NCBI RefSeq assembly: GCF_030732095.1
Contig: NZ_JAVAMQ010000003.1
Span: 124,001 to 188,000 of the forward strand
DNA from: Paracoccus spongiarum
GTDB taxonomy: Bacteria; Pseudomonadota; Alphaproteobacteria; Rhodobacterales; Rhodobacteraceae
DNA length: 64,000 nucleotides
Direction: 5' to 3'
Shown: positions 56,321 to 64,000 of the stretch, piece after piece
How positions within the stretch are numbered: the stretch's first letter is position 1
Layout of the letters: every line of letters begins with the position of its first letter
Notes under the pieces: generated by a model
What the model was told of the DNA's origin: nothing
Database searches by the model: none
What the model saw: only the letters and a program-made list of their open reading frames with translations
Made by a program: the position numbers and the translations under genes

Positions 56321-56369
56321 TGGTGGAGCCAAGGGGAGTCGAACCCCTGACCTCTTGAATGCCATTCAA
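56321..56369 (-). other. attL: 3' half of tRNA-Ala(GGC)
   Basis: On the minus strand the 49 bases from TTGAATGGCATTCAAGAGG through the T-arm (AGGGGTTCGACTCCCC) to TGGCTCCACCA are the 3' part of a tRNA-Ala. The anticodon loop gives GGC, U70 fits the alanine G3-U70 identity pair, and CCA is encoded. The 5' half is absent: beyond 56369 the sequence no longer fits. Integration into the 3' half of a tRNA leaves such a copy on one side and the intact tRNA on the other, so the intact gene is expected at the right end of the element. Confidence 0.85.
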
Positions 56370-56410
56370 AAATCGGGCCAAAACGAGCGCCAACAAATCA
56401 TAACATCACA

Positions 56411-56423
56411 CGTCAAAATGACG
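56411..56423. promoter_or_regulatory. 13-bp palindrome upstream of integrase
   Basis: CGTCA-AAA-TGACG is a perfect inverted repeat. It agrees at 10 of 13 positions with the palindrome CGTCGTGATGACG at 62671-62683 in the same element, so it may be a third site for the same regulator. Confidence 0.4.
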
Positions 56424-56470
56424 CAGTAAAATAAGGATATTGCGCCATTCGTTAGGTTGCGTTACTAACT

Positions 56471-56519
56471 CTGGGGAACAAGGGCTATCGCCTATTCTGT
56501 TCCCCAGTTTGTTCCCCAG
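56471..56519. repeat. Three copies of TGTTCCCCAG upstream of integrase
   Basis: The 10-mer TGTTCCCCAG occurs at 56498-56507 and 56510-56519 as a direct repeat with 12-base spacing, and inverted at 56471-56480, all within 50 bases just before the integrase start. A related GTTCCCCA is at 58349-58356 near alpA. The arrangement fits integrase arm-type binding sites or integrase autoregulation. Confidence 0.6.
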
Positions 56520-56533
56520 ACGGACCTTTTGAC

Positions 56534-57745
56534 ATGAAGCTGACCGCCGCGACCGTCGATAAGATGCAGCCGACCGACAAGCGCCAGGAGATCCCCGACG
56601 CGCTTTGCACCGGCCTTTATTTCGTTGTGCAACCGACCGGAAAGAAGGGCTGGCAGGTCCGCTATAGGCACGGGGGAACACACCGCAGAATGACGCTTGG
56701 GGCATATCCGGTCCTGTCGCTGTCAGAAGCCCGTCAGAGGGCGCGGGACGCGCTGGCAGCGGCGTCAGAGGGGCGCGACCCGGCTGGCGAGGTCAAGGAC
56801 GCCAAAGCCGCGAAGAAGCCCGATGCCGACCGCGACAAGCTGTCAAATGTGATAGACCTGTTCATGAAGCGCCACGCCAGCCGCAACCGTCGTGGCGACG
56901 ATGTGCTTGCCATGTTCCGGCGCGAGATCATGGACAAATGGGGCGACCGGGATATTCACAGCATTACTAAGCGGGACGTGATCGACGTTCTGGACGGTAT
57001 CGTCGACCGAGGCAGTCCAGTGACCGCGAACCGCCTTCGGGCGCATTTGAACACGCTGTTCAATTGGGCGAAGGGCAGGGACATTATCGAGGTGAACGCG
57101 ATGGACGGCGTCAGGCCGCCTGCGCCCGAAAAGCCCCGCAACCGCGTCCTGACCGACGACGAAATCAGACTGTTCTGGAATGCCTGCGACGGGCTTGGCT
57201 ATCCGTTCGGGCCGATCTACCGGCTGCTGTTGCTGACCGGGCAGCGGCTGCGCGAGGTCGCGGAAATGACGTGGCGCGAGATCGACGGCGACACTTGGAC
57301 GCTGCCAGAGGCTAGAAGCAAGAACGCGGACGAACACACCGTGCCTCTGTCGCAAGATGCGCAGGCGCTGCTGGCCGGTCTGCCGCGCATCGGCGGGCGC
57401 TATGTTTTCACCACGACCGGCAACAGCCCCGTGTCAGGCTTCACCCGCGCCAAGGAGCGCGTTGATAAGCTGATGGCCGAGGCGTCCGACGATCCGATCC
57501 CGGCTTTCACGATTCATGATCTGCGCCGCACAGCTGCGACCGGCATGGCAGGGCTGCGCTTTCCGCCGCATGTGGTCGAGGCTATTCTGAACCATCGCAG
57601 CGGCACCCGGCGCGGCGTGGCGGGCGTCTATAACCGTCACGACTATGCCGACGAAAAGCGGGCCGCTCTGGACGCATGGGCGCGCTATGTCACGCAGCTT
57701 GTCGAGGACGAGCCGGGCAACATCGTGCGGATCGGGGGGCGGTGA
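56534..57745 (+). CDS. int: Tyrosine-type integrase (DUF4102 N-terminus)
   Basis: This 403-residue recombinase would integrate the element at tRNA-Ala. It has the N-terminal DUF4102 domain (MKLTAATVDKMQPTDKRQEI, RYRHGGTHRRMTLGAYPVLSLSEAR), a SAM-like core-binding domain, and the catalytic domain with Arg in LLLTGQRLREVAEMTWREID, HDLRRTAATGMA, LNHRSG and the nucleophile Tyr in VYNRHDYADEKR. All catalytic residues are present. It starts 164 bases inside the tRNA remnant, the usual place for P4-type integrases. Confidence 0.95.
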   Translation: MKLTAATVDKMQPTDKRQEIPDALCTGLYFVVQPTGKKGWQVRYRHGGTHRRMTLGAYPVLSLSEARQRARDALAAASEGRDPAGEVKDAKAAKKPDADRDKLSNVIDLFMKRHASRNRRGDDVLAMFRREIMDKWGDRDIHSITKRDVIDVLDGIVDRGSPVTANRLRAHLNTLFNWAKGRDIIEVNAMDGVRPPAPEKPRNRVLTDDEIRLFWNACDGLGYPFGPIYRLLLLTGQRLREVAEMTWREIDGDTWTLPEARSKNADEHTVPLSQDAQALLAGLPRIGGRYVFTTTGNSPVSGFTRAKERVDKLMAEASDDPIPAFTIHDLRRTAATGMAGLRFPPHVVEAILNHRSGTRRGVAGVYNRHDYADEKRAALDAWARYVTQLVEDEPGNIVRIGGR

Positions 57746-62616: not shown

Positions 62617-62622
62617 TAACCC

Positions 62623-62686
62623 TTGTTAGGTCAGTATTATTGACTTATTATGGACCCGTTCGAACAGGCCCGTCGTGATGACGCGC
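62623..62686 (+). promoter_or_regulatory. Sigma70-like promoter and shared palindrome before capsid
   Basis: TTGTTA (62623-62628) and TATTAT (62646-62651) have a 17-base spacer and face the capsid gene. GCCCGTCGTGATGACGCGC (62668-62686) follows, identical in 18 of 19 positions to the site after the head-module promoter at 60285-60303; it contains the near-palindrome CGTCGTGATGACG (62671-62683). Capsid therefore probably has its own regulated transcript. Confidence 0.65.
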
Positions 62687-62708
62687 TAGTCCCTGAGAAG
62701 GATACAGA

Positions 62709-63959
62709 ATGAAGCTTCATGACTTGCAAGAACAGCGCAGTCAGGCGGTCGCGGAGATGCGCCGCTTGGCTGACGCCGTTGAAACCCGTGGCGACGACTA
62801 TACCGCCGAAGAGGAAAAGCGTCACGCCGACCTCAAGAAAGACATCACCAATCTCGACGCGAAAATTCAGCGCGCCAAGGACATCGCCGACATCGAACGC
62901 AGTGCACCTGCCGTCGTGTCGGGCCGTGGTGATGGCGCCTATGAAGACCGCGCCCGCGATTTCAGTGTCACGACCGCGATCCGCGCCGCCATGGGCGAAC
63001 GTGTGGACGATGGCCGGGAACGCGAACTCTCGACCGAACTGAAACGCCGTTCGGCGCGTGCCTTCACCGGCATTGCCGTCCCGGACGAAGTGTTCATGGA
63101 AAAGCGCACGCTGATGACCTCTGGCGCGGCGGCTGACCTTGTGCCGAACGTCCATCGCGGCGACCTGTTCATCGACATGCGCCGCAGCGCCATCATGACC
63201 GCGCGACTGGGCGCGACCGTGCTGGACGGACTGACCGGCACCATCGACATTCCCAAGCAAACCGCATCCTCGGCGGCTCAATGGGTGGCGGAAGACAGCG
63301 CGCTGACGGAAACCGACGCGAACTTCACCGACGTGAACCTTGCACCGAAGACCGTCGGCAGCCTGACCAGTTATTCCCGGCGCACGCTGATCAACGCCGT
63401 CCCTGCCGTCGAACAGCTTGTCCGTCGCGATCTGGCGGCTGTTGTGGCCCGTGCCATCGACTATCAGGCAATCTTCGGTGATGGCAGCGCAGGCACGCCG
63501 ACGGGCGTCGTCAATGCCTCTGGCGTCGCGACCTCGACACTGGCGACCCCTAGCTGGGCCGAAGTGCTGGCAATGATTGCGGCGATCCAAAGCGAAGACG
63601 CCGACATCGGTTCGCTGAACTGGGCCATGAACCCGGCGGCGGTCGCCAAGCTGCGCGCCACGAACAAGGTCGCGGCGGAACCTGAACACGGCTTCCTGAT
63701 GACCGAACCCGGCAGTCTGGCGGGCTATGGCGTCGGAACCTCGACCGCCATTCCCACGACCGCAACGCCAGACACGACCGTCATCTTCGGGGCATGGCCG
63801 CAACTGCTCATCGGTCGCTGGTCTGGCACCGACATTCTGGTCAACCCGTATGGCTCAGGCTATGCGGCGGGCCGTGTGCAGGTTCGCGCGATGCAGGATG
63901 TCGATGTCGCTGTCCGCCATGGCGAAAGCTTCGCCGTCGCGGCTGATCTGGCGGTCTGA
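62709..63959 (+). CDS. HK97-type major capsid protein
   Basis: The 416-residue protein forms the head shell. An N-terminal coiled-coil delta domain (MKLHDLQEQRSQAVAEMRRL, TAEEEKRHADLKKDITNLD) acts as scaffold and is removed by the prohead protease. The HK97 fold follows with IDIPKQTASSAAQWVAEDSA, VGSLTSYSRRTLINAVP and RDLAAVVARAIDYQAIFGDGSAGTPTGV. AAGGA precedes the ATG. It lies one base before the protease gene; capsid before protease is the reverse of the common phage order. Confidence 0.95.
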   Translation: MKLHDLQEQRSQAVAEMRRLADAVETRGDDYTAEEEKRHADLKKDITNLDAKIQRAKDIADIERSAPAVVSGRGDGAYEDRARDFSVTTAIRAAMGERVDDGRERELSTELKRRSARAFTGIAVPDEVFMEKRTLMTSGAAADLVPNVHRGDLFIDMRRSAIMTARLGATVLDGLTGTIDIPKQTASSAAQWVAEDSALTETDANFTDVNLAPKTVGSLTSYSRRTLINAVPAVEQLVRRDLAAVVARAIDYQAIFGDGSAGTPTGVVNASGVATSTLATPSWAEVLAMIAAIQSEDADIGSLNWAMNPAAVAKLRATNKVAAEPEHGFLMTEPGSLAGYGVGTSTAIPTTATPDTTVIFGAWPQLLIGRWSGTDILVNPYGSGYAAGRVQVRAMQDVDVAVRHGESFAVAADLAV

Positions 63960-63960
63960 C

Positions 63961-64000
63961 ATGGAGCGGCGGACGGCGATTGAACTCCGGGCCGCAGGGC
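63961..64000 (+). CDS. HK97 family prohead protease, N-terminal fragment
   Basis: The frame begins ATG at 63961, one base after the capsid stop, and reads MERRTAIELRAAG before the window ends. This matches the usual start of HK97 prohead proteases (MERR...EVRAAG). Only 13 residues are visible, so the call is mostly from that pattern and position. Confidence 0.6.
   Translation, partial: MERRTAIELRAAG

Follow-up and report, generated by a model that had tools for sequence, protein, structure and literature searches.

The window analysed here is a stretch of 64,000 nucleotides from Paracoccus spongiarum (contig NZ_JAVAMQ010000003.1, positions 124,001 to 188,000; contig C23 of a 3.93-Mb assembly in 93 contigs), at the right end of which a compact integrated element, very probably a capsid-forming phage satellite, begins in a tRNA-Ala(GGC) gene. 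The right end of this island lies 2.8 kb past window position 64000, and the sequence beyond was taken from the same contig (a 9,000-base overlap with the window is identical); coordinates there are given as window equivalents. In full, the island measures 10,476 bp between perfect 49-bp direct repeats, with an intact tRNA-Ala(GGC) at the right end. All its genes lie on the + strand in the order int, orf204, AlpA-like, orf71, orf71b, prim-pol, connector, HNH, TerL, capsid, protease, portal, orf170 and orf167, their families being assigned with Pfam and PHROGs.

56321..56369, no strand: left attachment site (attL), a 49-bp 3' part of tRNA-Ala(GGC)
56473..56517: putative integrase arm-type sites, three copies of TGTTCCCC, one inverted, directly before int
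56534..57745, + strand: tyrosine integrase, 403 amino acids (aa), with Arm-DNA-bind_3 and Phage_integrase
57748..58362, + strand: orf204, no firm family, a backbone gene common to related islands
58453..58656, + strand: AlpA/HTH_17-like small protein, 67 aa, below the Pfam cut-offs
58656..58871, + strand: orf71, no firm family
58868..59083, + strand: orf71b, scanned against PADLOC only
59080..60159, + strand: primase-polymerase (prim-pol), PF09250 and PriCT_1
60322..60642, + strand: gp6-like head-tail connector (adaptor), PF05135, PHROG Ad1; the frame may also be read longer, from 60262
60639..60995, + strand: HNH endonuclease
61009..62616, + strand: terminase large subunit (TerL), matching PDB 6z6d at E 6e-115
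62709..63959, + strand: HK97-fold major capsid protein
63904 to window-equivalent 64476, + strand: prohead protease (S78)
window-equivalent 64473-65699: portal
window-equivalent 65703-66215: orf170, cysteine-rich
window-equivalent 66212-66715: orf167, cysteine-rich
window-equivalent 66797-66845: right attachment site (attR), a perfect 49-bp copy inside tRNA-Ala(GGC) 66797-66872

The earlier note on this DNA had read an integrase, an alpA-like gene, two small genes, a prim-pol, and then connector, HNH, TerL, HK97 capsid and a protease start from the window alone. All of these are present on the + strand, orf204 being an extra gene beyond that list; the match of the alpA-like gene is weak. The proposed tRNA-Ala remnant at 56321 was borne out as well, its 49 bp recurring perfectly within the intact tRNA at the other end, where the second-longest word common to the two compared end stretches is 9 bp. 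A portal, an intact tRNA-Ala, a total of 10-18 kb and no tail genes had been predicted in advance for the region right of 64000, and all four were found there; the adaptor predicted with them exists, but it lies left of the head genes and not right. Overall, the island is lower in G+C (61.8%) than the window to its left (66.7%) and the sequence to its right (70.2%), with a coding share of 93.7% by the ORF (open reading frame) set chosen.

No tail or lysis family was recognised in the island by Pfam or PHROGs. The insertion at the 3' end of tRNA-Ala beside a tyrosine recombinase, the island's own prim-pol, the set of head genes and this lack of recognised tail and lysis genes together support its reading as a complete, probably functional capsid-forming phage satellite, and on the sequence as it stands this is very likely what the element is.

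The insertion site itself was compared with other genomes. The tRNA-Ala together with its conserved right flank was found at 7 loci outside the own genome (20 loci were returned). At each of them a single tRNA is present and nothing matches the element proteins; five have a perfect 49-bp core, and in the remaining two the tRNA is 98.7% identical. Two occupied relatives, L164 and L167, have two perfect 49-bp cores each. The left flank had no match in other species, so that a full empty-site alignment was impossible. Two further TGTTCCCC copies stand directly before attR (window-equivalent 66720 and 66731), and the copies at both ends are putative arm-type sites of the integrase. Their layout is complete in the window island and in one further island of the same genome (C31), partial in L167, L177 and L159, and absent at the island ends of L164, L173, L175 and L178; it is thus not general.

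A search with the window capsid at E 1e-20 gave matches in 11 of 125 Paracoccus genomes, the own genome included. Close capsids besides the own genome occurred only in G017 (89% identity), G116 (86%, partial) and G099 (74%, a contig-end fragment), the other seven Paracoccus matches being 28-35% identical. A 7-row capsid profile at E 1e-70 recovered 3 of 394 family and 3 of 385 class genomes, with the own genome counted in both. Four named loci carry a window-type capsid, from a Caulobacterales metagenome-assembled genome (MAG), a Hyphomicrobiales MAG, a Rhodobacteraceae MAG and P. thiocyanatus; the first two have connector, HNH, TerL, capsid, protease, portal, an orf170 relative and an integrase. 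Among viral contigs, 7 of 49 loci have a close capsid (55-83%). One contig (L018, 10,999 bp; the only such case of the 49 loci tested) repeats 125 bp at its two ends, giving a circle of 10,874 bp, and in another (L019, capsid 55%, 17,467 bp) many genes lie upstream and the capsid gene sits near the contig end. The island of G017 carries in addition genes for head completion (PF05521) and for tail completion (gp17). In the stretches compared, no attachment (att) repeat of at least 14 bp was seen in G017 (L064), L065 or L067, and L068 has one of 14 bp only.

The integrase encoded at 14634-15668 of the Hyphomicrobiales locus L068 shares 60% identity with the integrase of the Paracoccus G017 island, and from this likeness the island backbone seems to cross orders. 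In P. thiocyanatus (L065/L070/L021), the beginning of a 372-aa gene that has no Pfam family runs on in frame into the C-terminal part of the capsid (residues 264-415). Portal, protease and integrase are retained there, whereas TerL has been lost; judging by this structure, the locus is a deletion derivative.

Among the proteins of the window island without a firm family, orf170 has four cysteines that are invariant in 15 aligned relatives, including those of the Caulobacterales and Hyphomicrobiales MAG loci, and orf167 has weak HNH/zinc-type PHROG matches. Seven of eight unknown proteins had no match to the PADLOC defence models; a weak PDC-M03B match fell on L081:9927-10343. Ten AlpA-like proteins were aligned, of which HTH_17 matches four and Phage_AlpA three (best E 6e-6).

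The same genome holds three more such islands, of 9.8-11.3 kb and with a second head type:

C31 island: 9,828 bp, perfect 47-bp repeat in tRNA-Asn(GTT)
C78 island: 11,180 bp, tRNA-Arg
C18 island: 11,346 bp, tRNA-Phe

They share with the window island the architecture, the size, the targeting of tRNA genes and the absence of tail matches, whereas the second-type portal stands on a very long separate branch. Between the C31 and window islands, the integrase (64%) and the AlpA-like protein (75%) are more alike than the capsid (27%) and TerL (30%). PF05065 finds five capsids in the genome, those of the four islands and of a further cluster on C1, while PF04860 finds only C1, C23 and, weakly, C31, missing C78 and C18. 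With the own genome counted, the second capsid type was found at 38 places in 29 of 125 Paracoccus genomes; across the Rhodobacteraceae, 38 of 384 genomes and 38 of 383 genera have it. Among 50,697 phage records, the nearest to it were less than 60% identical, with a coverage of at most 62% among the matches listed.

A survey covered 71 loci, namely 37 Paracoccus second-type loci, L177 and L178 (with a window-like integrase), 30 from the rest of the family and two of the window type; the window island and C31 are left out, and the family part represents 30 of 40 second-type places outside the own genome. With a flanking direct repeat of at least 18 bp, or at least 15 bp if touching a tRNA gene, taken as the criterion, 50 of the 71 are bounded by repeats 9,056-12,134 bp apart (median 10,480 bp), two of these being doubtful (L249, with a 15-bp repeat and failed gene calling, and L266). 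Twenty-nine tail queries (13 from the C13 prophage of the own genome, 11 from the C1 cluster and 5 from an EDL933 prophage) had no match at E 1e-3 among the ORFs called in the 71 loci (1,611 in all), and the same queries match 13 (C13, self), 13 (C8) and 14 (C23) ORFs in the prophage contigs. The longest ORF within any bounded island (727 aa, L274) looks by eye like a primase or helicase and not like a tape measure; the 21 unbounded loci contain 12 ORFs of at least 600 aa in 20 kb including host flanks, all of them within the tail search. Moreover, 124 unlabelled ORFs from 20 islands were reduced to 73 cluster representatives, which gave 14 Pfam families, none of tail or lysis; among the PHROGs listed (25 of 40 families), head closure and tail completion/neck each appeared in a single member. 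Two of 36 second-type viral contigs have terminal repeats, L186 (56 bp) closing to 10,110 bp and L189 (144 bp) to 9,970 bp. In addition, the 10,206-bp contig L147 (G020:C45) has an 88-bp repeat as both its ends and closes to 10,118 bp, which suggests a circular form of this island in the G020 DNA. Together with L018, the four circle-closing related contigs thus fall at 10.0-10.9 kb.

Several points weigh against reading the element as a complete satellite. The AlpA-like protein scored 15.5 and 13.1 bits, under the cut-offs, and no family was found for it at E 0.01. No TerS family was found in the Pfam and PHROGs scans of the island, where a diverged TerS is possible, and no head-closure gene was recognised in it. 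In the survey, 21 of 71 loci lack an att repeat by the criterion above, and gene calling was poor in some, such as L249 and L266; moreover, the terminal repeats of the contigs could come from tandem copies instead. Nine of the 21 repeat-less loci are on short contigs or have their head genes near a contig end, the other 12 having no such reason; in one locus (L152) the repeat has only 13 bp. As for TerS, the EDL933 protein as a query found nothing in the contig stretch with the island (tblastn, E 0.1), and phrog_4581, which is named TerS, matches residues 2-74 of the HNH protein, that is, its HNH part.

The survey also bears on whether the island is a decayed prophage that lost its tail and lysis genes by deletion. 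Such derivatives do exist, as in P. thiocyanatus L065/L021 with its capsid fusion and missing TerL. However, no broken gene is seen in the window island and its att repeats are perfect, many tail-less islands of the same size occur in different tRNA genes, species and genera, and some contigs close into circles; independent decay would not be expected to halt at one size. Decay is therefore quite an improbable origin.

A satellite without tail genes would need a tail donor, and the same genome, in which the earlier note advised a search for a helper siphophage, does carry tail-bearing prophages at C13, C8 and C23, which are candidate helpers. The absence of any helper, suggested by a nil result with the tape-measure family PF10145, had to be dropped, as PF13550 showed tail modules at these three places. 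PF13550 tail-tip proteins were found in the C1 cluster, C13, C8 and at 88 kb of C23, with two shorter pieces at 61 and 39 kb of C23, the 61-kb piece having an internal stop. Ten annotated proteins of C13 comprise TerL, portal, head protease, decoration, capsid, tail terminator, minor tail and chaperone proteins, a 727-aa tape measure and one unknown; we take this prophage to be a lambda-type siphophage. By ORF size and tail matches, the layouts of C8 and C23 are similar, the C23 prophage region (about 80-124 kb) lying on the window's contig directly left of the window. Co-residence of prophages with islands is, nevertheless, no proof of compatibility: according to the review PMC11389934, none of the 17 prophages of a strain with one cf-PICI (capsid-forming phage-inducible chromosomal island) detectably mobilised it.

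The C1 cluster carries head and tail genes and, from its gene order and sequences, is presumably a gene transfer agent (GTA). In a variant of the satellite reading, the tails would come from this host GTA and not from a phage, for which its head and tail genes and the relatedness of the tail-tip proteins of C13, C8 and C23 to its own would speak. Only portal (28%) and protease (32%) of the C1 cluster match window-type proteins, with no connector match, and three other tail donors are in the genome, so this variant is rated as less probable still. Least probable of all is a self-sufficient small virus with tail or entry proteins too diverged to recognise: five genes (orf204, orf71, orf71b, orf170 and orf167) lack a firm family, but the longest candidate of 204 aa is too short for a usual tape measure, orf170 has its four-cysteine motif and orf167 its weak HNH/zinc-type matches, no lysis gene is recognised, and there is a gp6-type connector, which normally receives a stopper and a tail.

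If the element is a satellite, the cf-PICIs are its natural comparison (PMC10803314, PMC10690885, PMC13345588, PMC11389934). In these sources, cf-PICIs average 14 kb (PMC10803314), have a defined gene set including head genes (PMC10690885) and fall into three capsid clades (PMC11389934). The E. coli EDL933 island at 30330-44761 of L179 carries this published set, as do Escherichia phage vB_KppS-Ant (16.5 kb) and Pasteurella phage Pmp8 (15.3 kb), both of which were deposited as phage records. The EDL933 island is, we assume, EcCIEDL933. All three share with the window island an integrase, a small helix-turn-helix (HTH) regulator, a primase-type gene, capsid, protease, portal, connector, HNH and TerL; in the Ant record, one gene is additionally annotated as a tape measure. 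Identities between the window and EDL933 proteins are 43% for HNH, 41% for protease, 36% for portal, 30% for connector, 28% for integrase and 27% for TerL, the capsids matching only over 112 N-terminal residues. As opposed to the window island, with its 10.5 kb and a different replication gene, the gammaproteobacterial cf-PICIs have 15-16.5 kb, and they carry TerS and a head-closure gene, neither of which was recognised in the window island. Their order is capsid-protease-portal-closure-connector-HNH-TerS-TerL, while that of the window island is connector-HNH-TerL-capsid-protease-portal, which by gene order is the same circle opened elsewhere, minus TerS and closure.

The window portal matched 1,581 phage records, all below 60% identity, with Ant and Pmp8 among the highest (35-36%). 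In a portal tree of 24 rows, with L068 included and the GTA row left out, the window type (9 rows) had a support of 73/70, the gammaproteobacterial cf-PICIs (4 rows) 97/100, tailed phages (7 rows) 99/97 and the second type (4 rows) 100/100; the branching order among the first three groups is not fixed by this tree. The label cf-PICI-like given by the earlier note therefore fits the likely mode of action and has to be qualified as a family name, with TerS and head closure not recognised and the portal grouping apart. Because TerS was looked for and not found, the window type is probably not a plain member but cf-PICI-like in its working, and would form a separate lineage (two with the second type). 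The Streptomyces satellites MulchRoom and MiniFlayer likewise have their own heads and packaging genes, but their terminal repeats measure about 1 kb, an obvious replicase is lacking, their helpers are virulent and their hosts are actinobacteria, as described in PMC10690885. A literature search found no publication on satellites in Rhodobacter, Rhodobacteraceae, Rhodobacterales or Paracoccus, and five papers matched for phage-inducible chromosomal islands together with Alphaproteobacteria, which does not settle priority.

Relatives in the same tRNA gene point to an exchange of gene blocks. L164, the island of G115, is also at tRNA-Ala, but its replication-type gene differs and its heads are of the second type. 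Its DNA is 85% identical to the window island at positions 1-2338 (att, int, orf204, AlpA-like) and 82% at 9373-10552 (orf170, orf167, att), whereas the middle 7 kb of the window island have no blastn match in it; in L167 (G065), the match is confined to the left 2 kb and the att region. Since L164 and L167 share the ends but not the middle, the common backbone seems to exchange its replication and head genes together, as one block. Two further islands, both at tRNA-Asn, were observed with this backbone. L177 (G033, 9,978 bp) encodes at 8124-13606 a window-like integrase and AlpA-like protein, a primase and a helicase, and also a capsid-like protein, a protease and TerS (phrog_83), portal and TerL being unlabelled among the ORFs scanned, which were a part of its ORFs; it is possibly a form between ordinary PICIs and cf-PICIs. 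L178 (G063, 10,373 bp) combines at 6291-14007 the same backbone with another head type, having a 514-aa protease-capsid protein and a phrog_12 portal, and neither TerL query matched it.

The life cycle of the window satellite might run as follows. A tailed phage, by infecting the cell or inducing the island, would switch on excision, perhaps through the AlpA-like protein, and the island would replicate in circular form, at about 10.5 kb. TerL and HNH of the island would then cut this unit and package it into the island's own small heads; unit packaging is proposed because HNH occurs together with an HK97-type TerL. Portal and connector would dock onto parts supplied by the helper, namely a stopper, a tail terminator and a tail, and the helper would finally lyse the cell. 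One small head size fits the narrow 9-12 kb range of the relatives, and the length of the island suggests that its head is far below HK97 size, with T=3 or T=4 as an estimate by simple volume scaling.

More broadly, the islands may belong to a major, as yet unnamed satellite group of the Rhodobacteraceae, although this wider proposal is tentative and rather doubtful as a whole. It would have a backbone of about 10.5 kb with an exchanged replication/head block and no fewer than two ancient lineages of heads, for which no close kin among tailed phages turned up in the searched collections. Its members would fill a single class of small heads without the help of a canonical TerS and would take their tails from the GTA-related siphophages carried by these hosts or from the GTA. 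The Rhodobacteraceae are bacteria known for gene transfer agents. Judging by the second capsid, a similar way of life would be found in about one tenth of the sampled Rhodobacteraceae and about one quarter of the Paracoccus genomes, the own genome included. With four islands, two head types and at least three tail-bearing prophages in one strain, P. spongiarum would offer a natural system for the study of head-tail fit, and may equally suit the questions of how head size is set and how DNA is packaged without a known TerS.

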